DNA of 64,000 nucleotides, taken from positions 1-64,000 of the forward strand of contig JAGYIR010000011.1 of the NCBI GenBank assembly GCA_018402525.1, read 5' to 3'. The notes under the pieces were generated by a model. That model was not told the DNA's origin and ran no database searches. It saw nothing but the letters and a program-made list of their open reading frames with translations. A program made the position numbers and the translations under genes. Positions within the stretch are counted from its first letter, which is position 1, and every line of letters starts with the position of its first letter. The DNA is from Crocinitomicaceae bacterium (lineage in GTDB: Bacteria > Bacteroidota > Bacteroidia > Flavobacteriales_D > Crocinitomicaceae). Shown here piece by piece: positions 24,797-50,244 of the stretch.

Positions 24797-24799
24797 GAT

Positions 24800-25736: not shown

Positions 25737-25740
25737 AAAT

Positions 25741-26499
25741 TTACTTGTTTCTCTTTGTTGAATCGGAATTAAATTGATGGATTTCGACTTTATGTGTTGT
25801 GTCCATTGTTTTTTTTGAGTATCCCAAATCAATCAAAGCGAACAAAATGCCTGCCGCACCTATCATAAAGGTGGTATTAATAATTGCATTGAATTTTGTC
25901 TCAGGATCTCTGTACCTGACAACGAAATAAATTGGAATGAATACAAGCATAAAAACCAACAGGCTGGAAAACAAGATTATATTCGCCATTGGCCAATGCA
26001 TGATTTTAAATAGTGCACCGATGGAACCTGCGGAGGCAGTTAGCATTCCTAGAGTCATAATCAATCGATTGCTTTTTACTTCATCGTCTTTGAATTTTAG
26101 GACAATGTTCAATGGTATAAATACTAGGCTGAAGAATGCGAGACTGAGTACAACAAATATTCCCGCTCCGGGCCAGTGCATGGACTTAAATACCACTCCA
26201 AATACAATAAGAAGTATGGTAGCGATTCCTGATATTTTCAACGTTCTTTTCATGGCGTAAAAATTTTTAAATGTTAATAATTTTTGTGTTTCAGCTTCAA
26301 TTTCACCAAGCTCCTTGTGGTAAAATCGGGCAATAGTCATCTGGTAGAACTCAAAAAAGTCCCCTTCATTAGGCATTTCATTCTCGATGATACAGCAGAC
26401 GTGATCCAAAATGTTTAGTTTGACGTCTTCAATCTTAACACCTCTTTTCCCTATGTCATCTAAAATGAAATCAACCTGTTCACTCGTTACATTATACAT
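25741..26499 (-). CDS. GldL-like membrane protein with duplicated MHWP hairpins
   Basis: A 252-residue protein. The N-terminal ~90 residues are soluble and helical. Six hydrophobic segments follow. Two contain the same motif, FKSMHWPGAG (residues ~125-134) and FKIMHWPMAN (~185-194), each at the start of a membrane helix; FK-x-MHWPGA is also the hallmark of GldL, the motor-associated inner-membrane protein of gliding and T9SS. The long GldL tail is lacking, so it is a relative and not GldL itself. It overlaps the PadR gene by eight bases and is presumably under its control. Function unknown. Confidence 0.7.
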   Translation of the reverse strand: MYNVTSEQVDFILDDIGKRGVKIEDVKLNILDHVCCIIENEMPNEGDFFEFYQMTIARFYHKELGEIEAETQKLLTFKNFYAMKRTLKISGIATILLIVFGVVFKSMHWPGAGIFVVLSLAFFSLVFIPLNIVLKFKDDEVKSNRLIMTLGMLTASAGSIGALFKIMHWPMANIILFSSLLVFMLVFIPIYFVVRYRDPETKFNAIINTTFMIGAAGILFALIDLGYSKKTMDTTHKVEIHQFNSDSTKRNK

Positions 26500-26836
26500 T
26501 GAGTATTGGATTGTCTATACCCAACAAAAAACGCATCGTTTTCATAAAGTCCGCCAATTCATTGACGCGCTCTAAAACAGTGCTTTTCCCTTGATCTGTA
26601 AGAATGTAGTATTTGCGAACGCGTTTCCCAATATAAACAGTCTCTGTAATCACATCTCCTTGCTTCTCAAGTGCATGAAGGGTAGGGTATAGTGCACCTT
26701 CCGTGATTTGAATTTTGTCAGAAGTTAACTCCTTAACCTTCTGAGTGATTTCATAACCGTACATTTTATCTCCTTCTTTTAGAAGATTTAAAATGATGGT
26801 TTTTAATGTTCCTTTTATTAGTTCTGATGAATACAT
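26492..26836 (-). CDS. PadR family transcriptional regulator
   Basis: A 114-residue winged-helix repressor. MYSSELIKGTLKTIILNLL and KMYGYEITQKVKEL give the HTH, ITEGALYPTLHALEKQGDVI is the recognition region, and the wing is KRVRKYYILTDQGK. The start is the family's usual one. Two palindromic sites overlap its promoter, so autoregulation is likely. The coding end overlaps the membrane protein gene by eight bases, an arrangement common for PadR proteins that control a neighbouring membrane gene. Effector unknown. Confidence 0.92.
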   Translation of the reverse strand: MYSSELIKGTLKTIILNLLKEGDKMYGYEITQKVKELTSDKIQITEGALYPTLHALEKQGDVITETVYIGKRVRKYYILTDQGKSTVLERVNELADFMKTMRFLLGIDNPILNV

Positions 26837-26840
26837 AGGT

Positions 26841-26848
26841 CAAATATA
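26841..26848 (-). promoter_or_regulatory. -7 promoter element of the padR gene
   Basis: On the minus strand TATATTTG matches the Bacteroidota -7 consensus TAnnTTTG and ends only four bases before the ATG. The transcript would then have almost no leader. The element overlaps the first operator arm, as expected for repression. Confidence 0.5.
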
Positions 26849-26896
26849 CATAATATTCTTATGTATAAAAATTTAATACATAAGAATATTATGTAT
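26846..26896. promoter_or_regulatory. Double palindromic operator, probably for PadR
   Basis: Two 21 bp arms (26846-26866 and 26876-26896) are perfect inverted copies across a 9-base AT spacer. Each arm is itself a palindrome: ATACATAA, five bases, TTATGTAT. This fits the ATGT/ACAT half-sites known for PadR proteins. The arms cover the padR promoter and start just 10 bases upstream of its start codon. They could also act on the plus-strand YcxB-like gene. Confidence 0.75.
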
Positions 26897-27031
26897 AAAT
26901 TATTAAAGTATTGTTTTTCAGTGTATTAAAAAAATAATTTTTTAAAAAAAACTATTCGCATGAGAAATTGAGATAAAAAATCGGTTTCAGTTACTTAAAA
27001 CTACCTTTGTAAAAAACAATTGTTATCCTCC

Positions 27032-27562
27032 ATGAAGTACTCCTATAAAATCGAAAAGGAAGATTTGCTTGAATTTCAGCTATACACGGCTTCCAAATCA
27101 GAAGTTTTAGCAAAAAAACGCAGAAATAATCGCGCGTTTCTTGTTGCCGTCTCTATTTTGTTTGCAGGATACTTTTTCTCCAGCGATGAAGTGATTATGG
27201 GAATTTACTTCTCGGTAATGGTCATTTTACTTGTCCTGTTTTACGCCAAGTACTTCTCATGGAAACAGAAACTGAATTACCGACGCTTTCTCGCCGCGAA
27301 CTACTCCAGCCGATTTGGAATGGAAGAAACGCTTGAAACTTTTCCTACCAAAATTCACGTGAAGGATAACTTTGGTGAAGGGGATGTGGGCGCTTCGGAA
27401 TTAAAAAGTGTGGTGGAGGTAGATACTCATTTCTTTATCAACTTGGAAAGTGGCTCGTCGCTTATTGTCCCAAAAGCAAATGTGAATGCGACACAGCTTA
27501 AAAGTGACCTAGCGCGACTTAAAGTACAAATGGACGAAGAGTTGGATTGGTCGTGGAAGTAG
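27032..27562 (+). CDS. YcxB-like membrane protein
   Basis: A 176-residue protein from the ATG at 27032; a TTG 12 bases upstream is also in frame. Two membrane helices form a hairpin at residues ~35-70 (FLVAVSILFAGYFF and GIYFSVMVILLVLFYA). The C-terminal soluble half is a PH-like YcxB domain (DVGASELKSVVEVDTHFFI, SLIVPKAN). TACCTTTG at 27002-27009 could be its -7 element. Function unknown in the family. A hairpin terminator follows at 27625. Confidence 0.75.
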   Translation: MKYSYKIEKEDLLEFQLYTASKSEVLAKKRRNNRAFLVAVSILFAGYFFSSDEVIMGIYFSVMVILLVLFYAKYFSWKQKLNYRRFLAANYSSRFGMEETLETFPTKIHVKDNFGEGDVGASELKSVVEVDTHFFINLESGSSLIVPKANVNATQLKSDLARLKVQMDEELDWSWK

Positions 27563-27624
27563 GCTGTGTTATGGCAAAGTAGGTTATGGTTTACGTAAAT
27601 ATTGGCGAAGAAAGAGCACAAAGG

Positions 27625-27646
27625 AAATCGTCATAAGACGATTTTT
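27625..27646 (+). terminator. Hairpin terminator after the YcxB-like gene
   Basis: AAATCGTC pairs with GACGATTT around ATAA and is followed by T, about 60 bases after the stop codon. Confidence 0.65.
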
Positions 27647-27775
27647 GCACCTTAGTGTTCTTTATTTTCCAGCACCACTGCACTGACTCTTTGCGCACCT
27701 GGCGATTATACAAATTGAGTTGTTATCGCGAAATACGCTAGTGCTAAGATATATATTGGCAAAGAAAGGGTGGTA

Positions 27776-29011
27776 CTATGAATAAAACAAGGTTTCCGTC
27801 TTAAATGTGAGAGTGAAACGTGTCCCGCTTTCAGTAGTTCGAGTGATACTACCTTCCAATTGTTGTGTCAACGTTTCCAATAATTCTAAACCAAAAGTTC
27901 CATCTTTTATGGGGGGCACCCAAACACCATTGTCAGCATATAAAAACGTAGTAGTGGTTGGATTTGATTTCACATCAATAGAAATTTCACCATGAGGCAT
28001 GTTTTTTATTCCATGCTTCAAAGAATTGGTGATTAATTCATTGAAAATTAAAGAAATAGGAACCATGCTTTTTACGTCCACTTTTTCTAATTCCGATTGT
28101 ATAGATAACTTCACGCGATCACCAACATTTAAACTTTCACAAATGTCCTTTGATAAGTTCATCAGGTAGGATTCTAAATTGATTTTCGCTAAATCATCGT
28201 TGGAATACATCTTTTCGTGAATCAATGCCATGGATCGAATACGCCCTATTGCTTCATTGAAGTGTTTTTGGACTTCTTCACTTTCCGTTTCAAACGATTG
28301 GAGCTTTAAGAGACTGGATATAATTTGTAGATTATTTTTCACCCTATGGTGAATCTCTTTAAACATAACTTCATTCAAATCATTCTGGTTTTTTATAATG
28401 ATTTGCTTTTCACTTAAATCCTTGTTGATTCCTTGTAATTGATACTCTGCAAATCGATTGGCGTCAATGAAATAATGAATAATATATCCCAAAATAAGGG
28501 AACCAATAATTGCGTTGATTGCTTGAAATAACTTGATGATTAGTGTGTTTTCTTTCATTAACACAATATTGGTATCAAACATAAAAAAGATATAACAAAT
28601 GAGTGAGGTTGTAAAGCAAATCAATCCCACTGCTCCCCATCTTTTCCCAAGTACAAAGTAAGCGAAAATCACCTCTGTCATGTACCAAACCAAATCAACC
28701 AAATGTATCATGTCTTGCACGAGAAACAATTGAGAAGTGCTAAGAATAATCGCGAGTAGTAGAAACAGTTTCGCAGCCAATTCATATTTACGCGTGATTC
28801 TAATGGTAATAAGGATAGTACTGCAAAATAGCAATGCCACAGCCATTACAGCAAGGTAATTAGGAGCCATAAGGGCAGTCACGAGAGTAAAAATTGAAAC
28901 CGCATAAAAGATGGCAATATTTACACTCCATGTAAGTTTGAACCTCGCTTGGTCGTATAAGTCTTTGTAGTCGTTTTTGGGTTGCTTAAAAAAGGCTATT
29001 GCAGTTGACAC
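27776..29011 (-). CDS. Membrane sensor histidine kinase, HisKA_2 type
   Basis: A 411-residue inner-membrane kinase. Residues ~25-190 contain about six membrane helices without a large periplasmic sensor, so it may sense within the membrane. A short linker leads to the HisKA_2 phosphoacceptor box MFKEIHHRVKNNLQIISSLL, then an ATPase domain with ISLIFNELITNSLKHG (N box), YADNGVWVPP (G1) and GTFGLELLETL (G2). No response regulator gene is adjacent, so its partner is unknown. Confidence 0.88.
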   Translation of the reverse strand: MSTAIAFFKQPKNDYKDLYDQARFKLTWSVNIAIFYAVSIFTLVTALMAPNYLAVMAVALLFCSTILITIRITRKYELAAKLFLLLAIILSTSQLFLVQDMIHLVDLVWYMTEVIFAYFVLGKRWGAVGLICFTTSLICYIFFMFDTNIVLMKENTLIIKLFQAINAIIGSLILGYIIHYFIDANRFAEYQLQGINKDLSEKQIIIKNQNDLNEVMFKEIHHRVKNNLQIISSLLKLQSFETESEEVQKHFNEAIGRIRSMALIHEKMYSNDDLAKINLESYLMNLSKDICESLNVGDRVKLSIQSELEKVDVKSMVPISLIFNELITNSLKHGIKNMPHGEISIDVKSNPTTTTFLYADNGVWVPPIKDGTFGLELLETLTQQLEGSITRTTESGTRFTLTFKTETLFYS

Positions 29012-29227
29012 AAAATGAAAATTAATGATTGTTCTACCTTATTATTAGGCAATAAAAGTTATCAAATATATGAAAAAGAAGTTCAGCTGACATGCGCAGC
29101 GATTCAAGTTATAGGGATGTTTTTTTTATAATGTAAGGGGATTCTAGCATCGTCTATTACAATGTTGCGTAACCATTGTCACACAATTAATAGCTAATTC
29201 ACATAACTTTGATTAAAATTATCCCCT

Positions 29228-30154
29228 GTGAATAACACCCTTCTTCGTCAAGTAGTTTTTGTGCTCTTAGTAGGAGCGAGCCTACTTCCGTGGGTTTCAG
29301 CGCCAATGGCATTGTTTGTAGGAATTGTGTTCGCCAATATTTTTCAATCGACATCTTCGAAAAGTACATCTTCTATCGTTAAGCGATTGCTCCAAATTTC
29401 TATAGTTGGACTTGGTTTTGGGATGAATATCACCACGGCACTTGAAGTAGGAAAAGAAGGGTTTTTGCTCACCGTTTTTACGCTCATCGTGGTGTTTCTA
29501 ATTGGCTGGGGATTGAGTAAACTATTTGGGTTGGACCGTAAAATTGCCTATCTGATTTCCAGCGGAACTGCCATTTGTGGAGGCAGTGCTATTGCTGCCA
29601 TTGCTCCGTTGATTAAAGCCAATGAAAAGGAAATAAGCATCGCTATTGGGACTGTATTTATTCTTAATGCAGCTGCGCTGTTTATTTTTCCGGTAATTGG
29701 ACATTTACTGGAAATCAGTCAATACGATTTTGGACTCTGGAGTGCTATTGCTATACACGATACAAGCTCGGTAGTAGGTGCTTCATCGCAATATGGCGAA
29801 ATTGCATTAGAGGTTGCAACCACGGTAAAACTCAGTCGTGCCTTATGGATTATTCCCTTGTCGATTATTACCGCGCTTGTTTTTCGCCGAACAGAACAAG
29901 GAATTAAATTTCCCTTCTTCATTTTACTTTTCATTCTAGCCATGCTTATTTCAAGTTGGATTCCACAGTATGCAGAAGTGTACAGTTGGTTCAGTTCCCT
30001 TGCAAAACGCTTATTGATACTCACACTATTTCTAGTTGGAACGCAATTAACACTGGAAACGATAAAAACAGCTGGGGTAAAATCAATGCTTTTTGGTTCT
30101 ATCCTGTGGGCGTTGATTAGCGTGATATCCTTGGTGGTGATATTGGTGTGGTAG
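29228..30154 (+). CDS. YeiH family (UPF0324) putative anion exporter
   Basis: A 308-residue polytopic inner-membrane protein with ~9-10 helices. Family motifs are LGFGMNITTALEVGKEGF, SGTAICGGSAIAAIAPLI and WSAIAIHDTSSVVGAS. Members are annotated as putative sulfate exporters but this is not proven for most. The start is GTG at 29228. TAACTTTG at 29204-29211 fits a -7 element. Single-gene unit. Confidence 0.9.
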   Translation: MNNTLLRQVVFVLLVGASLLPWVSAPMALFVGIVFANIFQSTSSKSTSSIVKRLLQISIVGLGFGMNITTALEVGKEGFLLTVFTLIVVFLIGWGLSKLFGLDRKIAYLISSGTAICGGSAIAAIAPLIKANEKEISIAIGTVFILNAAALFIFPVIGHLLEISQYDFGLWSAIAIHDTSSVVGASSQYGEIALEVATTVKLSRALWIIPLSIITALVFRRTEQGIKFPFFILLFILAMLISSWIPQYAEVYSWFSSLAKRLLILTLFLVGTQLTLETIKTAGVKSMLFGSILWALISVISLVVILVW

Positions 30155-30310
30155 GATTGCACTGCACAGAACCAATTGGTTCAAATATCCTAAAAAACAA
30201 ACGCTTCTCGGGCAAATCGTTATTATCTCTCTTAAAATGTGGAAAAGAAACTGAAAATCACGTATTTTCCGCAATGGAAATGTGGGGGAGAAGTGGTAGA
30301 TTTGGTGATA

Positions 30311-30853
30311 ATGAAAAAAAACATCCAACGCATTCTAATTGTATCCTTACTACTATACTCCTGTAAAAGTGAGCATAGTTCAGAAAAAGATACAATATCG
30401 TTCGTAAATACAGTCTATTACTTCACGTTGAATTTTGATTCAACCGATTGCACGGTTCATAGCGCATGCGATTGCTGTTCTGATCATTTGGTATTTCTCA
30501 ATGACAAAGAATTTGTATTCATAAATTATTGTCTCGCCGATAAAACGTACTTCAAAGGAAAGTATAAGATTCTTGATAGTGCCCTTCAACTTAACTTTAA
30601 CTCAACCCATGTGTCGAGAAATTACAATTGGGAGCGTGAATTGGACACCACCGGTACAATTAAAAATGAATACACCATCACTAAAACGACGTGGGATCCA
30701 CAACCAAGGAACATAGCTATTTTTCACTGTAAAGATAAGACATGTCTTAATGCTTCTTCAGAAAGTGTGACTTCTTACGGTGTGCGGGATACCTTGCAGG
30801 TAAATCAAATGATTGATCGTATGAAAAAGGATGGAATTTGGGAGAAATTGTAA
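30311..30853 (+). CDS. Hypothetical lipoprotein
   Basis: Starting at ATG 30311 the protein (180 residues) opens with a lipoprotein signal, MKKNIQRILIVSLLLYSCKS, with lipobox LYSC at Cys18. The longer frame upstream adds 24 residues without a signal and is less likely. The mature part has Cys-rich stretches (CTVHSACDCCSD, FHCKDKTC), suggesting disulfides or metal binding. No family recognised. Confidence 0.7.
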   Translation: MKKNIQRILIVSLLLYSCKSEHSSEKDTISFVNTVYYFTLNFDSTDCTVHSACDCCSDHLVFLNDKEFVFINYCLADKTYFKGKYKILDSALQLNFNSTHVSRNYNWERELDTTGTIKNEYTITKTTWDPQPRNIAIFHCKDKTCLNASSESVTSYGVRDTLQVNQMIDRMKKDGIWEKL

Positions 30854-31044
30854 ATTTCAGAGAATTGAGAAACAGAAACAATTTGTGAATAACTAAAGAT
30901 AAAATGTTGGTTTTGAGGGAGAGGAATGTAGGGGAGATTGGGTGAATGATAAATTTGTTGGTAAATTTGATACGTAGAGTAAAAACATTGTGTTACTTTT
31001 CGACTTATTGTTGTTTACTATTTAAACTTTATAAAATCAGGGCC

Positions 31045-31365
31045 ATGAAAACAATTATTTTTTCCATTATTCTAGTTATCTCTTCAATTACAAAAGCGCA
31101 AGAAACTTACACCAAAATTTTAGTAAACGACCAAGAAATTAATGTCATTTCTGCGTCTGAAAGTAACAGAATAAAGATTATTTCAAACGAACAAGAATAT
31201 GAGGGATTTGACCTTTCCGGTGTTGGGTGCGGGATTACAAAAAAAGATGACTATTGGATCGTAGTACCCTCCAAACCTGAAACCAAGGTAGTTTACTTAA
31301 CTGTTTCAGCTAAAATTGATGGTAAGTTTTATCAGATTTTCCGTCAAGAATTTCGTGTAGAGTAG
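31045..31365 (+). CDS. Small secreted hypothetical protein
   Basis: A 106-residue protein from ATG 31045, with a clear signal peptide (MKTIIFSIILVISSITKAQ). The mature ~87 residues look like a small beta-sandwich (ILVNDQEINVISASESNRIK, YEGFDLSGVGCGI). The in-frame extension upstream adds 33 residues that destroy the signal peptide, so I do not use it. Unrecognised family. Confidence 0.65.
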   Translation: MKTIIFSIILVISSITKAQETYTKILVNDQEINVISASESNRIKIISNEQEYEGFDLSGVGCGITKKDDYWIVVPSKPETKVVYLTVSAKIDGKFYQIFRQEFRVE

Positions 31366-34007: not shown

Positions 34008-34032
34008 TTAATTCCCCCCAATCATTTCCCCG
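34008..34032 (+). repeat. 25 bp direct repeat, left copy
   Basis: TTAATTCCCCCCAATCATTT followed by CCCCG. It recurs with one mismatch at 34750-34774, so the transposase gene and both its hairpins lie between direct copies. Confidence 0.8.
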
Positions 34033-34082
34033 CTCCGCTGGATTTGCACCGCGCAGCAGCCACGGAGTGAATCCTGCGGAAT
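34032..34082. repeat. REP-like hairpin, left, interrupted copy
   Basis: GCTCCGCTGGATTTGCA (34032-34048) and ATCCTGCGGAAT (34071-34082) together equal the inverse of the right hairpin, but 22 bases are inserted between the two parts in the loop region. Confidence 0.75.
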
Positions 34083-34100
34083 AGTTCTTAACTTAATTGA

Positions 34101-34676
34101 ATGAAACAAGGTGTCAAGCACACAATAAAAAAGAACACTAGCTACTTCCTAACACTTACCGTTGTTGGTTGGATTGATGTTTTTACTAGAAAAAATCACA
34201 AGGATGCAATTATAAACTCACTGCGCTACTGCATTAAGAATAAAGGTCTGAATGTTTACTGTTATTGTTTGATGTCAAACCACTTACATTTGATAGTTAA
34301 CTGCAATGATCCCTTTGAATTAAAAGATGTCATTAGGGATTTTAAAAAGTTCTCAGCCAAAAAGATATTGAGTCAAATACAAAATGAACCTGAATCTAGA
34401 AGAGAGTGGATGCTAAATGAATTTTCAAAAGCCGCGGATGAAAGTCAGAAGCATAAAAGTTACAAGTTTTGGCAAGTGGGAAATCATGCAATAGAATTGT
34501 ATAGCGAAAAGTTTTTGTGGGATAAAATCAATTATATTCACAATAACCCAGTAGAAGAGGGTTTCGTGAATAATAATTATGAATGGAAATATTCTTCAGC
34601 GAGTAGTTATCACGAAATGGAATCTTTACTAGAAGAAGTTTATTGTATTCCTAGGATGCTACAAACGATTAAATGA
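34101..34676 (+). CDS. REP-associated tyrosine transposase (RAYT, Y1_Tnp)
   Basis: A 191-residue HUH transposase of the IS200-like Y1 superfamily. The metal-binding pair is in MSNHLHLIVNC (HLH), the fold start is YFLTLTVVGWIDVF, and the nucleophile Tyr is probably in NHAIELYSEKFLWDKINYIH, followed by NNPVEEGFV. RAYT proteins act on REP hairpins and are usually domesticated single-copy genes. Inverted REP-like hairpins lie 18 bases upstream and seven bases downstream. It is directly upstream of the thiamine riboswitch. Confidence 0.93.
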   Translation: MKQGVKHTIKKNTSYFLTLTVVGWIDVFTRKNHKDAIINSLRYCIKNKGLNVYCYCLMSNHLHLIVNCNDPFELKDVIRDFKKFSAKKILSQIQNEPESRREWMLNEFSKAADESQKHKSYKFWQVGNHAIELYSEKFLWDKINYIHNNPVEEGFVNNNYEWKYSSASSYHEMESLLEEVYCIPRMLQTIK

Positions 34677-34682
34677 AAAGAC

Positions 34683-34711
34683 ATTCCGCAGGATTGCAAA
34701 TCCAGCGGAGC
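34683..34711. repeat. REP-like hairpin, right copy
   Basis: CCGCAGGATT pairs with AATCCAGCGG around a 3-base loop with one central A-A mismatch. The 29-base unit is the inverse of the left copy. It begins seven bases after the transposase stop codon. Confidence 0.8.
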
Positions 34712-34749
34712 CGTTTAATTGTCGACCACACTTAAGTATTTTAGTTCTG

Positions 34750-34774
34750 TTAATTCCCCCCAATCATTTTCCCG
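34750..34774 (+). repeat. 25 bp direct repeat, right copy
   Basis: TTAATTCCCCCCAATCATTT followed by TCCCG, 24 of 25 bases equal to 34008-34032. It lies about 30 bases upstream of the TPP riboswitch. Confidence 0.8.
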
Positions 34775-34803
34775 TCCCATAAATATTTCCTACATTTACA
34801 CAG

Positions 34804-34883
34804 TACTTTAGGGGTGCCCGTTCATTCGGCTGAGATCATACCCTTTGAACCTGATACAGTTTGTGCTGTCGTAGGGAAAAGTA
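34804..34883 (+). promoter_or_regulatory. TPP riboswitch (THI element)
   Basis: The canonical core is present: GGGGTGCCC, GGCTGAGATCATACCC, GAACCTGATACAG, a variable hairpin (CAGTTTGTGCTG) and TAGGGAA. P1 is TACTTT (34804-34809) with AAAGTA (34878-34883). It binds thiamine pyrophosphate and lowers expression of the downstream thi operon. A promoter is not clear; TACATTTA at 34791 is a weak -7 candidate. Confidence 0.96.
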
Positions 34884-34899
34884 GAAATGCGCTCTGACG

Positions 34900-34957
34900 C
34901 CATTCCTAAGGTGCATAATAGTATGTTGTACGTAATTTACACGTAAAAAAGGAATGG
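34900..34957 (+). promoter_or_regulatory. thiS: Start-codon sequestering helix of thiS
   Basis: CCATTCCT at 34900-34907 is perfectly complementary to AGGAATGG at 34950-34957, which includes the thiS ATG (34954-34956). Lying just after the TPP aptamer, this is the likely expression platform. No terminator with a T run is seen, so control is probably at translation. Confidence 0.6.
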
Positions 34958-35157
34958 AAATAAGCATCAATCATATCAAAACAACTGTTGAAGAAAATAC
35001 TTCTTTAACTGCCGTTGTCGCGACAAATTCTGGAGAGAATACCAAAGGAATCGCTGTTGCCGTCAACGAAAACGTGGTGCCCAAAAACGAGTGGGATAAC
35101 ACCATTTTACAAGAAAACGATACAATCATCATCATTAAAGCAACGCAAGGAGGGTAA
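34954..35157 (+). CDS. thiS: Sulfur carrier protein ThiS
   Basis: A 67-residue ubiquitin-like sulfur carrier ending in the required Gly-Gly (KATQGG). ThiF adenylates this C-terminus and it becomes the thiocarboxylate that ThiG uses to build the thiazole ring. The fold markers are INHIKTTVEENTSLTAVV and VNENVVPKNEWDNTIL. First gene of the operon, directly under the riboswitch. Confidence 0.95.
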   Translation: MEISINHIKTTVEENTSLTAVVATNSGENTKGIAVAVNENVVPKNEWDNTILQENDTIIIIKATQGG

Positions 35158-35177
35158 TAAATTAACAGTAAAACAAA

Positions 35178-37207
<2,030 letters not shown>

Positions 37208-37225
37208 TGGTTGGTACAGAGTTTT

Positions 37226-37259
37226 AACACAGAGGAACGGAGGAACAGAGGTCACAGAG
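37226..37259. repeat. 34 bp perfect inverted repeat, left arm
   Basis: AACACAGAGGAACGGAGGAA and 14 more bases; the exact inverse is at 37682-37715. The units (CAGAG, GGAGG) resemble a CTCTGTG variant of the CTCTGCG blocks. It starts 18 bases after thiC. A second motif, CCTTTGTGCCCTTGTGGTT, follows at 37270. Confidence 0.9.
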
Positions 37260-37327
37260 TTTTGAAATCCTTTGTGCCCTTGTGGTTAAACCTACAATAA
37301 TTGATAAACAAATTAAAAGTTAGAATT

Positions 37328-37666
37328 ATGAAAAATATAAAACTAATAGTGCTCACAACAATGACAATGCTGTTTCTAGGAATGGGAAATGTCAATGCGC
37401 AGGAAGAACCTTCAAAAACAGTCATTATTCGAGTTACAGAAGGCAGTAGTAGCAGTGCTGTGAAACTTGGACTTGTAACAATTGATGCAGAAGGAAATAC
37501 AAATGCGATAGTTTTGGAAAAGGGACATGATTTAGATGTCTCAGCAAGTAATGGGGCGCTAATTCAAAAAGAGATTGAGAAATGGAAGCAAGAAGGATAT
37601 GAAATAAAGCATTTTTCAACTTCTGGAGAGACAATATTTCGTACAATGATCATATTGGAAAAGTAG
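37328..37666 (+). CDS. Small secreted protein inside the thi operon
   Basis: A 112-residue protein from ATG 37328, with a signal peptide (MKNIKLIVLTTMTMLFLGMG to NVNAQ). The mature ~85 residues have strands (TVIIRVTEG, GLVTIDAEGN) and a C-terminal helix. I recognise no family and see no thiamine link. The gene sits between thiC and the thiE-like gene, exactly enclosed by a perfect 34 bp inverted repeat, so it looks like an inserted cassette. Confidence 0.7.
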   Translation: MKNIKLIVLTTMTMLFLGMGNVNAQEEPSKTVIIRVTEGSSSSAVKLGLVTIDAEGNTNAIVLEKGHDLDVSASNGALIQKEIEKWKQEGYEIKHFSTSGETIFRTMIILEK

Positions 37667-37681
37667 AACGCTTTTATTCTC

Positions 37682-37715
37682 CTCTGTGACCTCTGTTCCT
37701 CCGTTCCTCTGTGTT
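37682..37715. repeat. 34 bp perfect inverted repeat, right arm
   Basis: CTCTGTGACCTCTGTTCCTC and 14 more bases, the exact inverse of 37226-37259. It ends 19 bases before the next thi gene. Confidence 0.9.
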
Positions 37716-37734
37716 TAAATTAAAATAGGAATCA

Positions 37735-38319
37735 ATGCTCATAGTTATTTCATATCCTGAAGCACCCGCAAACGAAGCATCCCGCATCAATCAACTATTC
37801 GATTCGGGAATGCAGCTGTTTCACCTTCGGAAGCCCCACGCAACGAAAGAGGAAGTGAGATTATTACTGAACGAAATTAACCCCGAATACAGAAAAGGTG
37901 TTGTTTTGAACCAGTTTTACGAGTTGTCAGAAGAATTTGGAATGAACAGATTTCATTTTTCAACGGACAAAAGAAATAGAAGTAAGCACAACGCTTGGAA
38001 CAAAGATGGAAACATCCTTTCGACTTCCACGCATGAATTGAAAGAATACACATCGCTTGAAAGTTGTTTTGACTATGCGTTTTTAAGTCCAGTTTTCGAT
38101 AGTATTTCGAAGCCATTGTACAAAAAAGTGCAGTTTGAGATAAAAGAAAAAACGAACGTCAAATTGATAGCGCTGGGTGGAATAACAGCAACGAATTGCA
38201 ATGAAGTTAAGCGACTTGGATGCGATGGAATAGCAGTACTAGGAGGAATCTGGCAACAACAACATCCAGTGGAATCCTTCAAAGAAATAAAAAGAGTATG
38301 GAATATACACGATCAATAG
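37735..38319 (+). CDS. Thiamine phosphate synthase-like protein (TenI/ThiE fold)
   Basis: A 194-residue TIM-barrel protein related to ThiE and TenI. It has MQLFHLRKPHATKEEV, FDYAFLSPVFDSISK and LIALGGITATNCNEVKRLG (phosphate loop). The second, more typical ThiE is encoded at 39040. This copy lacks the full pyrophosphate-binding TxT loop and may instead be a TenI-type thiazole tautomerase. Its end overlaps thiD by 22 bases. Confidence 0.85.
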   Translation: MLIVISYPEAPANEASRINQLFDSGMQLFHLRKPHATKEEVRLLLNEINPEYRKGVVLNQFYELSEEFGMNRFHFSTDKRNRSKHNAWNKDGNILSTSTHELKEYTSLESCFDYAFLSPVFDSISKPLYKKVQFEIKEKTNVKLIALGGITATNCNEVKRLGCDGIAVLGGIWQQQHPVESFKEIKRVWNIHDQ

Positions 38320-39050: not shown

Positions 39051-39681
39051 ATTACATTACATATCGCAGGGAGAAACGTCTCAAGAGCAACTCAACAACA
39101 TCAAAAATGCGTTGAATGCTGGTTGCGACTGGATTCAATTGCGTTTCAAGGAGAAGGACGAGCTTTCCTCAAATTACTTCGCCGAGAAAGTGAAATTGGA
39201 ATGTGAACGCTATTATGCGTCACTGATCATCAACGATTTTGCGGACATCGCCAAGCGCGTGGATGCAGATGGTGTGCATGTTGGATTGGGAGATACATCA
39301 GTAAGTGAAGTGCGAGAGATTATCGGTCCAAATGGAATAATAGGAGGGACGGCGAATACTTTTGAACACGTATTACAACGTTTCAGCGAGCGCTGTGATT
39401 ACGTGGGATTAGGGCCATATCGCTTTACAGAAACGAAAAAGAACTTAAGTCCAATTTTGGGCATTGAAGGGTATCAAGATATTGCCAGTCGATTGAAAGA
39501 AATGGGCGTTACAATTCCAATCTTCGCCATTGGCGGAATAGAACTGGAAGATGTGGAAGGCTTGATGGTAGCGGGAATTCACGGCGTTGCATTGTCAGGT
39601 GGAATCACGCATGCGACAGATAGAAAAGAATTTATAAATCAGATGAATAAGGCACTGAATGGAAAAGTTAAAAATAGCTGA
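39040..39681 (+). CDS. thiE: Thiamine phosphate synthase
   Basis: A 213-residue TIM-barrel enzyme that couples HMP-PP to the thiazole phosphate. [63 protein letters not shown] and [15 protein letters not shown] are the ThiE blocks. It starts within the thiD end (11-base overlap) and ends within the thiG start (23-base overlap). Confidence 0.95.
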
Positions 39682-40429
39682 TAAGGAATTTATTTCGCGT
39701 TTGTTCTTGGGGACAGGGAAATTTGGATCTTCTGAATTGATGGAGCAAGCAATTTTGAGTTCTGAGAGTGAATTGGTGACAGTGGCACTAAAACGCGTCG
39801 ATTTGGAGACAGATACGGACGCTATTTTGTCGCATTTGAATCACCCACGCATTAATTTATTGCCAAATACTTCAGGAGCACGTAATGCCAAAGAAGCGGT
39901 GTTTGCAGCACAATTGGCACGAGAAGCTTTGGAAACGAACTGGTTGAAACTGGAAATTCACCCCGATCCAAAATACTTATTGCCAGACGCCATTGAAACA
40001 CTCAAAGCGACGGAAGAATTAGCAAAATTGGGATTCATCATCTTGCCGTACATTCACGCTGATCCAGTGTTGTGCAAGCAATTAGAAGACGCAGGAACAG
40101 CAGCTGTCATGCCGTTGGGAGCGCCAATCGGAACAAACAAAGGACTTCGCACCAGCGACTTTTTGGAAATCATCATCGAGCAGAGTAAAGTCCCAGTGAT
40201 TGTCGATGCGGGAATTGGAGCGCCTTCGCATGCGGCATACGCGATGGAACTTGGAGCAGACGCCGTGTTGGTCAATACAGCAATCGCAGTGGCAGGAAAT
40301 CCAGTGGAAATGGCACAGGCGTTTAAATTGGCAGTAGAAGCAGGAAGAATGGCATACGAAGCAAAATTAGGAAAAGTACAGAATTCAGCAGTGGCGAGTA
40401 GTCCGTTGACGAGTTTTTTAAACGATTAA
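39659..40429 (+). CDS. thiG: Thiazole synthase
   Basis: A 256-residue TIM-barrel enzyme that forms the thiazole phosphate from deoxyxylulose phosphate, dehydroglycine and ThiS-thiocarboxylate. [16 protein letters not shown] is the N-terminal signature; [20 protein letters not shown], the catalytic Lys region [15 protein letters not shown], and [20 protein letters not shown] are intact. The partners ThiS, ThiH and ThiF are in the same operon. Confidence 0.97.
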
Positions 40430-40433
40430 GTAC

Positions 40434-40500
40434 CCATTGTCTCTGCGGGACTCTGCGCAAAACCTCTGCGTACCTCTGCGAGAAAGAAAATTATAATACA
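40434..40500. repeat. Degenerate CTCTGCG repeat block B (upstream of GxxExxY)
   Basis: Four CTCTGCG units at 10-13 base steps, ending CTCTGCGAGAAAGAAAAT and then AATACA. The tail resembles the tail of block C, so the two blocks are in direct orientation around the GxxExxY gene. Confidence 0.85.
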
Positions 40501-40564
40501 GTGTAAAATAAGTGATAATATTTTCTAACTTAATATAGAATTGTTAACCACAAAACACTAAAAA

Positions 40565-40942
40565 ATGACTGAAAATGATTTGTCCTATTCGATTCGAGGA
40601 GCTGCTTTTAAAGTACATTCGATATTAGGACCGGGTTTATTAGAGTCGGTTTATGAAGCCGCTTTAATGTGTGAATTGAAGAAAAAAGGATTAGAAGTTC
40701 ATTCTCAAGTTAGAGTACCAGCTTATTATGAAGATATAAAATTGGATTTAGGATTTAGAATAGATTTACTGGTGAATAATAAAGTTATAATAGAATTAAA
40801 GTCGGTGGAATCTCTTACAGGAGTTCATTTTAAACAAGTACAAACGTATTTGAAGTTGACTGATATTAAACTTGGCCTTCTAATAAATTTTAATTCCTTA
40901 CCACTTAGAGAGTCAATACACAGAATCGTAAATAATTTGTAA
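40565..40942 (+). CDS. GxxExxY protein (PD-(D/E)xK-like)
   Basis: A 125-residue protein. The GxxExxY motif is GLLESVY at residues ~24-30, after SIRGAAFKVHSILGPG. A PD-(D/E)xK-like core follows: the acidic residue in LGFRIDLLVNN and the ELK in KVIIELKSVESL. Relatives are placed in a PD-(D/E)xK nuclease superfamily family; catalysis is not proven. It has no thiamine role and sits in the thiG-thiH gap between two CTCTGCG blocks. A truncated second copy is at 35178. Confidence 0.88.
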   Translation: MTENDLSYSIRGAAFKVHSILGPGLLESVYEAALMCELKKKGLEVHSQVRVPAYYEDIKLDLGFRIDLLVNNKVIIELKSVESLTGVHFKQVQTYLKLTDIKLGLLINFNSLPLRESIHRIVNNL

Positions 40943-41000: not shown

Positions 41001-41105
41001 CTTCTCTGCGTCCCTCTGCGAAAATCTTTGCGTACACCAAACAAACACTTCCTCTGCGTTTCTCAGCGAATTCCTCTGCGAGCCTCTGCGAGAAAAAACA
41101 ATACA
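41001..41105. repeat. Degenerate CTCTGCG repeat block C (downstream of GxxExxY)
   Basis: Seven units (CTCTGCG, CTTTGCG, CTCAGCG) with irregular spacing, ending CTCTGCGAGAAAAAACAA and TACA right before the thiH start. Not CRISPR-like: no uniform repeat and no spacers. Confidence 0.85.
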
Positions 41106-42984: not shown

Positions 42985-43554
42985 TCAATTAAAGGACAAG
43001 CTCAGCCTCAATCCCGCTGTCCGATAATCCATCAAAACAGGATCCATGCGCAACGTAAGATCTGGGGAGATATCGAATGAAACAAAATGTGCCTCGACAC
43101 CAGCATCAATGACTTGCAGAAGATAAACAAATCCAACTGCTAGAATTGCTAAGTCCCTGCGACGGATACTTTGCTCGTACAATTGTAAGACGCCCTGATC
43201 ATCGTAGCTGCTCCATTGTGGATCGCCTAATTGACCTTCGAGACGAAGTGTATACTCATTACGAAGCGATTTTTGGCGTTGCTGATTACTGATAAGCCAA
43301 TAAGTTGTTCCACCTAGTCCAGCGTAAATCAACGGTACTTTCCAAAACGCCTTCTTTTTGCCTTTTGGCATCGCAAGGTGATTGTAAATTTGTCCTGCAC
43401 CAGGAAGCGCTGCAGAAAGTATCACAGCAGTTTTTATGGAGTGCCCGCGAACAGTGTCCTCTACTTCAATGGTTAATGAATCAACGGGTGTTTCATCTTG
43501 GGCAATGCAAGAAAAGGCTAGAAAAAAAAGGAGTATGGTGATTCCCTTTATCAT
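42985..43554 (-). CDS. DUF5683 protein
   Basis: A 189-residue exported or membrane protein. Signal-like N-terminus (MIKGITILLFFLAFSCIAQ), then the DUF5683 core: SIKTAVILSAALPGAGQIYNH, FWKVPLIYAGLGGTTYW and RRRDLAILAVGFVYLLQVIDAGVEAHF. Function unknown, but in Bacteroidota the gene is regularly next to parB, as here (four-base overlap). Three hydrophobic segments suggest a membrane location. Confidence 0.88.
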   Translation of the reverse strand: MIKGITILLFFLAFSCIAQDETPVDSLTIEVEDTVRGHSIKTAVILSAALPGAGQIYNHLAMPKGKKKAFWKVPLIYAGLGGTTYWLISNQQRQKSLRNEYTLRLEGQLGDPQWSSYDDQGVLQLYEQSIRRRDLAILAVGFVYLLQVIDAGVEAHFVSFDISPDLTLRMDPVLMDYRTAGLRLSLSFN

Positions 43555-44468
43555 TTATTGAGTAGTTCCATAATTCGATTAAAATCGACTTGGGAATTGA
43601 AATTTAAAATGATTTTACCACTGCCATTCTGCGCTTTCTTGATTTCAACCTTCGTAGAAAGTCGATCGCTTAAATGTTCTTTCAGCGTGAATTCATTCTC
43701 AGAAATCTTAGGACTTGAGGTCGAAGTACTGGTCGATTTAGAAACACTTTCTGGTGATTTTATTTCCTCACCTCTCAACAATGCTTCAATTTCACGTACG
43801 GATAAATTTTCATCGACAACACGTTTAAATAGAGCAACTTGTGTATCCTCATCTCCAGCAGAGACTAAAGCACGTGCATGTCCCATTGTGATCAAGTGAT
43901 TCTTAACTCCAGCTTGAATATCAGCAGGCAATTTCAACAAACGCAAATGATTCGTAATACTTGAGCGACTCTTTGCAATTTTTTGGCTAAGTTGTTCTTG
44001 CGTAAGATCACACTCCTCAATCAAACGGTGGTAGGAGAGAGCGACTTCAATTGGATTTAAATCCTCACGTTGAATGTTTTCTACCAATGCCATTTCTAGC
44101 ATCGTTTGATCGTTCGCAATGCGAATGTATGCAGGGACTTCTGTCAATCCAGCTAATTGCGACGCTCTAAATCGACGTTCACCAGAAATTAATTGATATT
44201 TATCGCGACCGAGTTTACGCACTGTCAACGGTTGAATGATTCCATGCGTTTTAATCGATGCACTTAATTCTTGTAAGGCTTCTTTTTCAAAATTTGAACG
44301 TGGATTGAAAGGATTGGCTTCAATACTTGAAATAGCGATACTGGCGATTGATCCAACAATCCCCGAACTTCCGTTGTTTGACGTGATATCAGTTTCAGAA
44401 CTCTCCAGTAATGCACTTAATCCTTTCCCCAATGCTGATCGCTTTTTCGTGTTAGAGCTCATCTCCAA
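43551..44468 (-). CDS. parB: Chromosome partition protein ParB
   Basis: A 305-residue ParB/Spo0J CTPase and parS-binding protein. The N-terminal domain has ALGKGLSALL, IKTHGIIQPLTVRKLG and LISGERRFRASQLAGL (CTP-binding box); ENIQREDLNPIEVALSYH and the HTH SQKIAKSRSSITNHLRLLKL follow. A Ser/Thr-rich linker leads to the C-terminal dimerisation domain. It overlaps parA by 17 bases. I saw no obvious palindromic parS site in the window. Confidence 0.95.
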   Translation of the reverse strand: MEMSSNTKKRSALGKGLSALLESSETDITSNNGSSGIVGSIASIAISSIEANPFNPRSNFEKEALQELSASIKTHGIIQPLTVRKLGRDKYQLISGERRFRASQLAGLTEVPAYIRIANDQTMLEMALVENIQREDLNPIEVALSYHRLIEECDLTQEQLSQKIAKSRSSITNHLRLLKLPADIQAGVKNHLITMGHARALVSAGDEDTQVALFKRVVDENLSVREIEALLRGEEIKSPESVSKSTSTSTSSPKISENEFTLKEHLSDRLSTKVEIKKAQNGSGKIILNFNSQVDFNRIMELLNK

Positions 44469-45264
44469 TGTTTATTTTTTTATCCTCGTTAGCAATTTTC
44501 GTGAGGTTGTTTTTCTGCAACAATTCACGTGTTAAATTCAAATAGTTGATAGCACCCTTGCTTCCTGCGTCATGCATGATGATGGTTTCGCCATAACTCG
44601 GCGCTTCTCCCAATTTCGTGTTTCTGTGAATCACCGTGTCAAATACAATCTCTTGAAAGTGCATTTTCACTTCTTCCACCACTTGATTTGCCAATCGAAG
44701 ACGTGTATCGTACATCGTTAACAAAATCCCTTCAATCTCTAAGTCCGTATTCAAGCGGCCTTGAACGATTTTAATGGTATTCAATAATTTTCCTAATCCT
44801 TCCAATGCAAAGTATTCGCATTGTACTGGCACCATGACTGAATCTGCTGCTGTCAAGGCATTTACAGTGATTAAACCAAGAGAAGGAGAACAATCAATAA
44901 TGATGAAATCGTAATCGTCCTTGATTTTTTCCAGTGCGAATTTCAATTTATGCTCTCTGTTCGGAAGATTGATCATTTCCAATTCTGCACCTACCAAATC
45001 AATGTGAGAAGGAAGGATGTATAAATTTGGATTGTCTGTTTTGATAATCAACTCCGCTGGATCAGCATCATTGATTAAGCAATCGTAAATATTTTTCGTG
45101 TTTTTTGGATCCAATCCAACACCTGAAGTGGCATTCGCCTGTGGGTCAGCGTCTATGATCAGCGTTTTGTATTCCAAAACACCTAAACACCCACACAAAT
45201 TAATGGTAGTGGTAGTTTTTCCAACCCCTCCTTTCTGATTCGCAATCGCTATAATTTTACCCAT
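44452..45264 (-). CDS. parA: Chromosome partition ATPase ParA (Soj)
   Basis: A 270-residue Walker-type ATPase that moves ParB-bound origin DNA. The deviant Walker A is NQKGGVGKTTTTINL, Walker A' is LIDADPQANATSGVG, and Walker B is FIIIDCSPSLGL. It has no N-terminal HTH, so it is of the chromosomal type. First gene of the parA-parB-DUF5683 operon. Confidence 0.96.
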   Translation of the reverse strand: MGKIIAIANQKGGVGKTTTTINLCGCLGVLEYKTLIIDADPQANATSGVGLDPKNTKNIYDCLINDADPAELIIKTDNPNLYILPSHIDLVGAELEMINLPNREHKLKFALEKIKDDYDFIIIDCSPSLGLITVNALTAADSVMVPVQCEYFALEGLGKLLNTIKIVQGRLNTDLEIEGILLTMYDTRLRLANQVVEEVKMHFQEIVFDTVIHRNTKLGEAPSYGETIIMHDAGSKGAINYLNLTRELLQKNNLTKIANEDKKINIGDEL

Positions 45265-45402
45265 TCATTGTAAATTGAAGCCTAAAGATACGCTAATTGG
45301 TCGTTTAAATCGCCAAAATGTGTAAGGAGTTATCAACGGTTTTTGTGTGGAAACAATGTTGACAACGTTGAATTAATTCGTAAGAAAGTGTATTCGATTG
45401 AA

Positions 45403-45723
45403 CTACAAGTCTTCGAAGGAAACTTCAGAGTAACTATCGATGCTATCTGTTTTTTCTTCAACTTCATACTCACCAGTCGCTTTCAACTCGTCAATCTTTT
45501 CGATGACGTCAATTAAGCCCTCCTTAAATTTCTCAAAATCCTCTTTGTATAAGAAAATCTTGTGTTTTTGGTAGCCTTCTTGTCCGTTATTAAACGTTTT
45601 TTTACTCTCAGTAACAGTAATATAAAGGTCGTTTCCTTTTGTTGATTTCACATCAAAGAAGTAGGTTCTCTTCCCCGCTCTCACTGCATTTGAATAGACT
45701 TCATTGTTCTTTTCGTAATCCAT
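45403..45723 (-). CDS. DUF3276 / PUR-domain protein
   Basis: A 106-residue protein with a PUR-alpha-like nucleic-acid-binding fold. VRAGKRTYFFDVKSTKGNDL, LYITVTESKK and KHKIFLYKEDFEKFKEGL are family blocks. The ~25 C-terminal residues are acidic. Borrelia BpuR is a studied relative that binds DNA and RNA; the role here is inferred only. Single gene. Confidence 0.9.
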   Translation of the reverse strand: MDYEKNNEVYSNAVRAGKRTYFFDVKSTKGNDLYITVTESKKTFNNGQEGYQKHKIFLYKEDFEKFKEGLIDVIEKIDELKATGEYEVEEKTDSIDSYSEVSFEDL

Positions 45724-45840
45724 AACCTAGTGCCTTTAGTTGGTTTTAGTTAACAAATATGCTATTTTCTTTTTAATTGCACAAATGAAAGGATTGATAT
45801 AAGACAGGATGTTGTTGCTCAGTTGGTTGTGAATAGTGTT

Positions 45841-45915
45841 GCCTTCGACTTCGCTCAGTCAACCTTTTTCACAAATTGTTTCTTCGCGAATCGCTGACTG
45901 CGCGGAGTCGAAGGC
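45841..45915. repeat. Long imperfect inverted repeat
   Basis: GCCTTCGACTTCGCTCAGTC at 45841 and its inverse at 45895-45915 pair over 21 bases with two mismatches across a ~33-base loop. Similar CCTTCGACT..GCTCAG repeats are found between genes in many bacterial genomes. It lies between two minus-strand genes, just after the ABC exporter gene, and may end its transcript. Confidence 0.7.
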
Positions 45916-45930
45916 AGATTTAGCGAATCT

Positions 45931-47682
45931 CTACGCTTTTTCCTCCATCAATTGCTTCTTGTACAATTCCGCGTAAGCACCGTTGCGCTTCAATAACTCC
46001 TGATGTGTTCCTTCTTCCGTGACCGAACCCTCTACAATATTGATGATACGATTAGCGTTTCGAATGGAAGAAATGCGGTGACTGACTACCAATGAAGTAG
46101 GAGCTTCCACTTTTTTCAAATTTTCCAAGATGATTTCTTCGGTTTCTGTGTCTACAGCGGATAAACAATCGTCGAGAATAAGGAGTTTTGGATTTCTAAT
46201 AAGTGCCCTAGCTATGCTGATTCGTTGTTTTTGTCCACCACTTAGGTTGACACCGCGTTCGCCGAGTACTGTATCAAACTTGTTCTTGAATTCCGCGATG
46301 TTGTGGTAAACATGTGCCATTTTGGTGACTTCAATCAAGCGTTCATCCGTGACTTCTCCTTCCAAACTTCCGAATTCTAAGTTGTTGCGAATGGAATCTG
46401 AGAATAAGAATACGTCTTGAGGAACGATTCCCGTTTGGTTCTTGAATTCTTCTAGGTTGATGTCAGGTAGATTCACCCCATCAATTAAAATTTCTCCTTG
46501 ATCTGGCTCAATTTGCCGCATCAACAGTTTTAAAATGGTCGATTTACCACTTCCTGTTTTTCCAACAATTCCCAACGATTCTCCTTTCAAGATGACAAAA
46601 CTCAAATCCTTGATCGCCATGATTCCCGAATTGGGGTAGGTGTAGTAGACGTTTTTGAATTCGATTTTTCCTTCAAATTTAAACGGAGCATTTGAATTAT
46701 TGACTATGTCTGGCGTTGTTTCCAAGAATTCGTTGATGCGTGTTTGACTCGCCGCAGCGCGCTGAATCAGCGAGGTGACCCATCCAACAGATGCAAACGG
46801 CCATGTCAACATATTCACGTAAAAAATGAACTTCATAATTCCTCCCGGTGTGATTCCATCATCGTAGTAGAGCAATCCACCCAAGTAGATACACATGATG
46901 GTACTTACACCAATTAAAATGAAGATGGTCGGCATGAATAACGAGTTAACAAGCACTAAGCGCATGCTTTTCGTTTTGTAATTCTCTGCTGAAGTATTGA
47001 ACTTGTCTTCAATCTCCTGTGTTCGGCTGTATGCTTTAATGACACGAATTCCCGTAAACGTCTCCTGCGCAATGGTCGACATGTTCGATTGCTCTTCTTG
47101 CACTGTTCTGCTGATGGTGTTAATTTTTGAAGCTACCTTATAAATAACAAAAGACATGATCGGCAAAGGAAGCAGAACGGCAACAGTAAGCGATGCACTT
47201 ATCTGCAACATGTTGTTGATGACGAGTATCGCTAAAACCGCGAGATTAATGGTATACATGATACCAGGTCCCAAATACATGCGCACGTGCGAAACATCTT
47301 CAGAAATTCGGTTCATTAAGTCTCCTGTCGTGTTTTTCTTGAAAAAGGAATAGTTCAGTCGCTGGTAATGCACGTAAATTTCATTTTTCAAATCGAATTC
47401 AATTAAACGGGACATGATAATGATCGTCTGACGTGTCATAAAAAGGAAAATTCCTGAAATAAGCGACAAAAGCATGAAATATGCACCGACTTCTAATGCG
47501 TAGTACAATAAATCGTCTTGGCTATTTTCCGTTCCCCATTTCGTGAGCGCATCTGTAGTATCTCCAAAGAATTCAGGCATTTCCACTTTGAACCAGTTAC
47601 TTCCAACAATAAAGAGGATCCCTAAAAGGAATCTCCATTTGTATTTAAAAAAATATTTGTTGAGATAGCTCAGTGACTTCAT
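45931..47682 (-). CDS. ABC exporter (MsbA/MdlB-like), fused permease and ATPase
   Basis: A 583-residue half-transporter that works as a dimer in the inner membrane. Six membrane helices cover residues ~15-310. The ATPase domain has Walker A GIVGKTGSGKSTI, signature NLSGGQKQRISIARAL, Walker B KLLILDDCLSAVD and switch His in LVVSHRISSI. The substrate may be a lipid or drug; it cannot be told. In the D-loop region Cys replaces the usual catalytic Glu position (LDDCLS), as is seen in heterodimeric exporters, so its partner may be another subunit. Confidence 0.9.
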   Translation of the reverse strand: MKSLSYLNKYFFKYKWRFLLGILFIVGSNWFKVEMPEFFGDTTDALTKWGTENSQDDLLYYALEVGAYFMLLSLISGIFLFMTRQTIIIMSRLIEFDLKNEIYVHYQRLNYSFFKKNTTGDLMNRISEDVSHVRMYLGPGIMYTINLAVLAILVINNMLQISASLTVAVLLPLPIMSFVIYKVASKINTISRTVQEEQSNMSTIAQETFTGIRVIKAYSRTQEIEDKFNTSAENYKTKSMRLVLVNSLFMPTIFILIGVSTIMCIYLGGLLYYDDGITPGGIMKFIFYVNMLTWPFASVGWVTSLIQRAAASQTRINEFLETTPDIVNNSNAPFKFEGKIEFKNVYYTYPNSGIMAIKDLSFVILKGESLGIVGKTGSGKSTILKLLMRQIEPDQGEILIDGVNLPDINLEEFKNQTGIVPQDVFLFSDSIRNNLEFGSLEGEVTDERLIEVTKMAHVYHNIAEFKNKFDTVLGERGVNLSGGQKQRISIARALIRNPKLLILDDCLSAVDTETEEIILENLKKVEAPTSLVVSHRISSIRNANRIINIVEGSVTEEGTHQELLKRNGAYAELYKKQLMEEKA

Positions 47683-47763
47683 CGATAATTTCCTATTTTT
47701 GCCTCGCGATTTTACATGACGTTGTAAAAGTATATAATTGAGTTAACATTTACGCTCTAAGAT

Positions 47764-48861
47764 ATGTTTGAAGTAAAAAATATTGAGGATACCAACCTCG
47801 CAGATAATCCAGTTATTGCTCAAATGAGCAAATACAATCACGAACAAATCCTTTTTTGTAACGACAATGCTACAGGCTTAAAAGCGATCATTGCTGTGCA
47901 TAATACAGTGTTGGGTCCAGCTTTGGGTGGAACACGCATGTGGCCGTATGCGTCAGAAACGGAAGCGTTGAATGATGTTTTGCGTTTGTCACGTGGAATG
48001 ACGTACAAAAATTCAATTTCAGGATTAAATCTTGGAGGAGGTAAAGCTGTTATCATTGGCGATTCACGTTCAATGAAGTCAGAAGCGTTGTTTAGACGAT
48101 TCGGAAAGTTCGTAAACAGTTTAGCTGGAAAATACATTACGGCGGAAGATGTTGGGATTTCTCCAATCGACATGACGTATGTAAACATGGAAACAAATCA
48201 CGTAGTTGGTTTACCGGGAAGAAGTGGAGATCCATCACCAGTAACGGCGCATGGAACTTACATGGGAATGAAAGCGTGTGCGAAACAACAGTTTGGTAGC
48301 GATTCGTTGAGCGGAAAGAAAATCGCTGTGCAAGGAGTTGGACACGTAGGTGAATACCTTGTGGCAGCTTTAGCAAAAGAAAATGCAGAAATTTTTATAA
48401 CGGATATTCACGAACCGACATTGGCGCGCGTTGCAAAACAATATGGTGCAAAAGTGGTTGGTTTGAATGAAATCTATGACATCGACATGGATATATATGC
48501 GCCATGTGCCTTAGGTGCAACGGTGAACGATGATACATTGTCACGTTTAAAATGTTCTATCATCGCTGGAGCGGCAAACAATCAATTGCAAAATGAAGAC
48601 GTACACGGTCGCATTGTTATGGAGAAAGGAATTATTTATGCTCCTGATTATGCATTGAATGCAGGTGGTGTGATCAATTGTTATTCTGAGGTGAAAGGTT
48701 TATCTCCTGAGTGGGCAATGGGTCAAGCAGAGGCAATTTATACAACGATTCAAAATATTGTTCAGCGCTCAGCAGCTGAAAAAATTCCAACGTATCAAAT
48801 TGCCAATAAAATGGCAGAAGAACGTATCGAATCCATCGGAAAGGTAAAACTTCCACTTTAA
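47764..48861 (+). CDS. Leu/Phe/Val-type amino acid dehydrogenase
   Basis: A 365-residue NAD-dependent dehydrogenase of the Glu/Leu/Phe/Val family. LGPALGGTRMWPY and NLGGGKAVIIGD (catalytic Lys), the Asp in TAEDVGISPIDM, and the cofactor site VQGVGHVGEYLVAAL are present. NAGGVINCYSEV lies near the C-terminus. It oxidises branched-chain or aromatic amino acids to 2-oxo acids; leucine is the best guess. Upstream of nusB by 17 bases. Confidence 0.93.
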   Translation: MFEVKNIEDTNLADNPVIAQMSKYNHEQILFCNDNATGLKAIIAVHNTVLGPALGGTRMWPYASETEALNDVLRLSRGMTYKNSISGLNLGGGKAVIIGDSRSMKSEALFRRFGKFVNSLAGKYITAEDVGISPIDMTYVNMETNHVVGLPGRSGDPSPVTAHGTYMGMKACAKQQFGSDSLSGKKIAVQGVGHVGEYLVAALAKENAEIFITDIHEPTLARVAKQYGAKVVGLNEIYDIDMDIYAPCALGATVNDDTLSRLKCSIIAGAANNQLQNEDVHGRIVMEKGIIYAPDYALNAGGVINCYSEVKGLSPEWAMGQAEAIYTTIQNIVQRSAAEKIPTYQIANKMAEERIESIGKVKLPL

Positions 48862-48877
48862 AAAGTTAAACAACAGA

Positions 48878-49825: not shown

Positions 49826-49829
49826 GATT

Positions 49830-50225: not shown

Positions 50226-50244
50226 AACAAAAAACAACGTTGAT

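Follow-up and report, generated by a model that had tools for sequence, protein, structure and literature searches.

Layout of the thi operon

The window, that is the whole stretch of 64,000 nucleotides that was analysed, carries a thi operon on the plus strand with a TPP riboswitch (34800-34894) at its head. The genes that follow the riboswitch are thiS (34954-35157), thiC (35360-37207), a thiE/tenI-like gene (TMP-TENI; 37735-38319), and thiD-like, thiE, thiH and thiF-like genes. The gene at 39659-40429, which we take to be thiG, has only weak NCBIfam matches, and these are to other families. The thiS-thiC gap holds a GxxExxY relic (35175-35225, plus strand), which represents the 5' end of the gene, aligns to 40562-40612 and has a tblastn E of 2e-4, and an adjoining CTCTGCG block (35253-35282, plus strand). 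The thiG-thiH gap holds an intact GxxExxY gene (TIGR04256 / PDDEXK_3; 40565-40942, plus strand) between CTCTGCG blocks, one upstream (40441-40480, plus strand) and others downstream (41004-41090, plus strand). The downstream blocks have the orientation of the upstream one, so that the operon's own GxxExxY cassette is flanked by direct and not by inverted blocks, which counts against the reading preferred below.

Upstream of the riboswitch lies a gene for a REP-type (Y1, RAYT) transposase (34101-34676). On its flanks are CCGCTGGATTTGCA-like sequences and two copies of TTAATTCCCCCCAATCATTT, at 34008 and 34750. The latter look like the edges of an insertion of the transposase gene (34008-34775) just upstream of the riboswitch. 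This transposase was rejected by eye as the owner of the repeats described below, because its flanks carry other repeats.

The junction between thiC and the thiE-like gene contains a single open reading frame enclosed by inverted repeats. A repeat search of the window gave two arms of 38 nt, 37222-37259 (minus strand) and 37682-37719 (plus strand, the inverse of the left arm), which are 97% complementary (37 of 38 positions) and spaced 422 nt apart. The perfect 34 bp inverted repeats reported in the initial annotation are present as the exactly matching part of these slightly longer arms (37226-37259 and 37682-37715). The arms consist of CTCTGTG-like units, reading outward on the minus strand in the left arm, and a further repeat-like unit, CTTTGTGCCCTTGTGGTTAAACC, is found just inside the left arm (37270-37292, plus strand). 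The repeat comparison bore out the description of the arms as variants of the CTCTGCG blocks elsewhere in the operon. When up to three mismatches were allowed, an 18-nt segment of the arm occurred in the window at the two arm sites only, against an average of 0.03 occurrences in shuffled sequences. Inspection of the arms by eye showed no target-site duplication, and the corresponding junction of the nearest relative is itself altered by repeats.

The passenger gene

The enclosed gene (37328-37666, plus strand), here called the passenger, encodes 112 amino acids. Its N-terminus resembles a signal peptide by inspection, and the protein is therefore probably secreted. A scan of the protein from its second codon gave no Pfam or NCBIfam family match and no match to a thiamine gene, in agreement with the earlier description of one unrelated gene inside the repeats. 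The PHROGs search gave a single weak match (E 0.016), and a structure model made from the single sequence had a mean pLDDT of 44.8, too poor for a fold search.

With the single protein as query, no relatives were found in the named genomes. Matches were found in 10 of 200 genomes of the family, the source genome included, and none of the other nine belongs to its genus. No CTCTGYG blocks occur near the passenger homologues in other genera (L006-L017), which thus give no sign that the bracket moved the passenger gene. A tblastn search for GxxExxY remnants between the thi arms also came up empty (best E 1.1), so there is no sign that the passenger replaced such a gene.

The thiC-thiE junction in relatives

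A match to the thiE-like protein was found in 10 of 34 genomes of the genus; leaving out the source genome and one in which thiC was not on the same piece, eight junctions could be read. The passenger is absent from all eight (L046-L051, L053, L054), so that the comparison with related thi operons suggested in the initial annotation sets the source genome apart. The thiC-thiE gap in these relatives is 3, 3, 79, 92, 99, 103, 200 and 251 bp, against 527 bp in the window. Among the other genomes of the genus, G138 has the nearest thiE-like protein (60%). Its gaps are only 5 bp between thiS and thiC and 6 bp between thiG and thiH, where the window has the GxxExxY relic and the intact GxxExxY gene, respectively. 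Its thiC-thiE gap of 200 bp contains one minus-strand block and plus-strand blocks, thus inverted, and no open reading frame. The wide thiC-thiE gaps in relatives weaken the argument from tight junctions at this position, but it holds for the other two, with their gaps of 5 and 6 bp in G138. In two of the relatives (L047, L051) an open reading frame that is presumably S23-like lies directly downstream of the thi genes; no CTCTGYG blocks were found near these two frames.

The CTCTGYG repeat family in the source genome

The source genome comprises 3.16 Mb in 19 contigs and is the one genome of its species that the analysis covered. It contains 27 doublets of the form CTCTGYG-N1-30-CTCTGYG, with none for the reversed pattern used as control. 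The thi arms are members of this genome-wide repeat family, whose short repeats form inverted pairs dispersed in intergenic DNA, as in REPINs. Gene-free inverted pairs were found at five sites (C1:27237, C1:130535, C6:357613, C7:642658 and C10:73982), and three right arms are clustered at C10:218125.

Comparison of all arms against all others gave two classes, A and B, and each of the gene-free pairs is made up of one A and one B arm with a local score of 12 to 20 between them. The two thi arms, on the other hand, belong to one sub-type and score 36 against each other, 18-27 against other A arms and 9-25 against B arms; their nearest kin is the arm at C10:218233 (score 30-32). Near-identity of the kind found at the thi site is therefore unusual for the family in the source genome. 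Judged from the arm sequences, it fits the recent formation or active upkeep that had been proposed for the repeats, the latter for example by homogenisation.

Only one other gene-sized inverted pair was found in the source genome, at C7:476733-477355. It has exact 22-nt arms and encloses a GxxExxY gene that is split into two frames.

Association of CTCTGYG repeats with GxxExxY genes

CTCTGYG brackets typically surround GxxExxY genes, which belong to the PD-(D/E)XK family, and the association is strong. With three aligned GxxExxY proteins as the query, a scan of the named genomes found at least 567 confirmed loci. The best 80 were kept and 74 of these were used, with 350 bp of flanking sequence on both sides; six were left out, and some of the loci are interrelated. 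A block was defined as at least two CTCTGYG-type units, with CTTTGYG and CTCCGYG included, within 350 bp. Blocks were found at 61 of the 74 loci (from the best 80 of at least 567) and on both sides at 45 of them. The two-sided loci were inverted and outward-reading in 35 cases, direct (+,+) in eight and inward in two. Of 140 control windows, each 700 bp long and taken 900 bp or more away, 3 contained a block. At the thi site, inverted and outward arms of the CTCTGYG type likewise flank one small gene on either side.

The best 80 loci are mostly from Bacteroidota, with Fluviicola and Brumimicrobium records among the matches. Outward two-sided loci were also found under the labels Neomarinimicrobiota, Pyrinomonadaceae and Anaerolinea; a record labelled Armatimonadetes gave an inward locus.

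The association is less strong inside the genus. Twenty rows gave 18 GxxExxY loci after two fragments had been merged into their neighbours, and a block was found near 10 of the 18, on both sides at five and strictly inverted at three (L091, L086 and L020). At one locus (L078) outward blocks are present only at a greater distance from the GxxExxY gene. Two of 83 control windows in the genus contained a block, and both of these lie in the thiC-thiE junction of G138.

At least four CTCTGYG doublets were found in 53 of the 200 family genomes, namely in 48 of the 96 with a PF13366 match and in 5 of the 104 without, a comparison that ignores kinship between genomes. The reversed-pattern control differed slightly between the two groups (means 0.53 and 0.33, p 0.02). 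A search for the bracket geometry gave matches in 3 of 399 genomes; its criteria were too strict, as the thi cassette itself was missed. By coordinates, the match in G152 spans a GxxExxY gene and that in G064 adjoins one; the third is in G351.

Other arrangements of the repeats were seen in passing. In G064 (L063:880-1805, contig C6) two direct copies of a stretch of about 67 nt, measured by eye, which end in CTCTGTG units, enclose a 155-aa open reading frame whose start resembles a signal peptide. Intergenic tandem arrays of CTCTGYG-type blocks were seen at two further sites (L185, G056:C12:203700-205300; L179, G043:C14:37200-38600).

Sites with changing contents

The blocks flank different contents, or none, at two orthologous sites. 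One is the thiC-thiE junction. The other is a site with a GxxExxY gene between inverted blocks in G006 (L183, G006:C17:121500-122900), where the orthologous position in G067 (L178, G067:C1:805200-806400) has inverted blocks around some 240 bp of other repeat-like sequence. Both outer flanks can be aligned between the two genomes, and no trace of a GxxExxY gene was found within the G067 bracket (best E 5.3). A third genome, G019, has two tandem GxxExxY cassettes that are identical at 699 of 699 positions (L177, G019:C10:164700-166800). A GxxExxY-type unit can therefore be amplified, which concerns the GxxExxY cassette and not the thi cassette.

Origin of the thi cassette

The preferred reading is that the thi feature is an inverted CTCTGYG bracket of the type found at GxxExxY genes, situated at the thiC-thiE junction of a TPP-riboswitch operon and holding the passenger instead of a nuclease-family gene. 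We regard the chances of this being correct as about even. The arms would serve a non-autonomous unit as its ends or as docking sites, and the passenger may have been placed there by a GxxExxY protein, one of which is encoded 2.8 kb downstream, or by break repair at the repeats. It would then be co-transcribed with the thi operon. Any movement or exchange may be driven by the nuclease.

In a wider form, which we put forward only tentatively, CTCTGYG repeats and GxxExxY genes would constitute a REPIN-RAYT-like system, present in several phyla, with a PD-(D/E)XK nuclease in place of the HUH transposase. The brackets would serve as swappable docking sites in operons, and the thi cassette would be a secreted-protein gene in such a bracket, now under the control of a TPP riboswitch.

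Alternatively, the arrangement may be coincidental. The CTCTGYG repeats would then be independent REP/ERIC-like intergenic elements that gather at gene junctions, and the passenger would have been acquired separately into a repeat-rich gap. Gene-free copies at other intergenic sites and passenger homologues elsewhere without arms agree with this, as does the G138 junction, which has repeats and no open reading frame. The range of the thiC-thiE gap in the eight relatives, 3 to 251 bp, also shows that the junction tolerates extra DNA. Against coincidence, the thi arms share one sub-type and are near-identical, unlike the A and B arms of the five gene-free pairs; the tight layout of a gene in an inverted bracket is the common one at GxxExxY genes; and the sole other gene-sized inverted pair found in the source genome contains such a gene. 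We consider coincidence rather improbable, if far from negligible.

An explanation at the level of RNA is unlikely. The arms would pair in the thi mRNA with the gene in the loop, and RNase III would cut the stem as in 23S rRNA intervening sequences, so that the passenger message is parted from those of thiC and thiE. The predicted fold does close a 38-bp stem (-154.5 kcal/mol, z -7.3), with none of 100 shuffled sequences folding as well, and in the 35 inverted GxxExxY loci an arm matches its own partner better than arms of other loci (mean 19.4 against 12.0; 0 of 10000 permutations). However, the arms of the eight direct-repeat GxxExxY loci, which are unable to pair with each other, are even more alike (30.8 against 13.6). 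Pairing is therefore not needed to explain the similarity of the arms, and the gene-free A/B pairs are imperfect.

It is highly improbable that the gene is switched on and off by inversion through its arms, as the initial annotation had suggested from the exact inverted repeats around a gene within an operon. The arms are members of a dispersed repeat family, no site-specific recombinase was present among the 20 neighbouring proteins that were scanned (21323-31365 and 42985-52383), and three orthologous GxxExxY cassettes (L058, L059 and L060) are all in one orientation.

If the GxxExxY-type bracket preferred here is the end of a nuclease-driven element, this would offer one testable account of a large class of intergenic repeats that lack an explanation and of a protein family whose role is unclear, and it would give operon junctions a way to take up unrelated genes. 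The thi case hints at a little-described path for genes into operons. A literature search, which had most subscription journals outside its coverage, gave no description of a link between CTCTGYG repeats and GxxExxY genes, and it gave two papers that name GxxExxY, each a single time and in passing.

Comparison with known systems

Terminal inverted repeats are shared with MITEs as defined in PMC3116915, and the gene-free CTCTGYG pairs are of about MITE size. Compared with the available part of that definition, the difference is that neither a parent transposase nor a target-site duplication was identified for the CTCTGYG pairs.

The 23S rRNA intervening sequences with an S23 open reading frame, in the available text of PMC4990558, have the frame in the loop of a 28 bp terminal stem in an element of 428-444 nt. 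The thi case is similar in element length and in having an open reading frame in the loop of a long stem, here predicted to be 38 bp. It differs from what that text describes in that it lies in a protein-coding operon and encodes another protein.

The nearest known arrangement is that of REPINs and RAYTs. The available part of PMC3116915 describes inverted pairs of repeats dispersed in intergenic DNA, an associated gene with the repeats on its flanks and a proposed trans-acting enzyme. Paired dispersed repeats, a repeat-flanked gene and an enzyme proposed to act in trans are common to both systems. As far as that part of the source goes, the gene found with the CTCTGYG repeats differs in being PD-(D/E)XK-like and not a Y1/HUH transposase, and the present repeats, about 38 nt long, differ in being made up of successive CTCTGYG units. 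Because both the enzyme family and the repeat are others, the thi feature is not classified as a member of the REPIN-RAYT systems.

The GxxExxY loci themselves (TIGR04256 / PF13366 PDDEXK_3) resemble the thi case in their inverted, outward CTCTGYG bracket, their single small gene and their similar length, a likeness that comes from the present comparison. They differ in that the gene bracketed at the thi site is not GxxExxY and that no remnant of one was found inside the arms. The thi feature is therefore classified as a bracket with another gene and not as a GxxExxY cassette.
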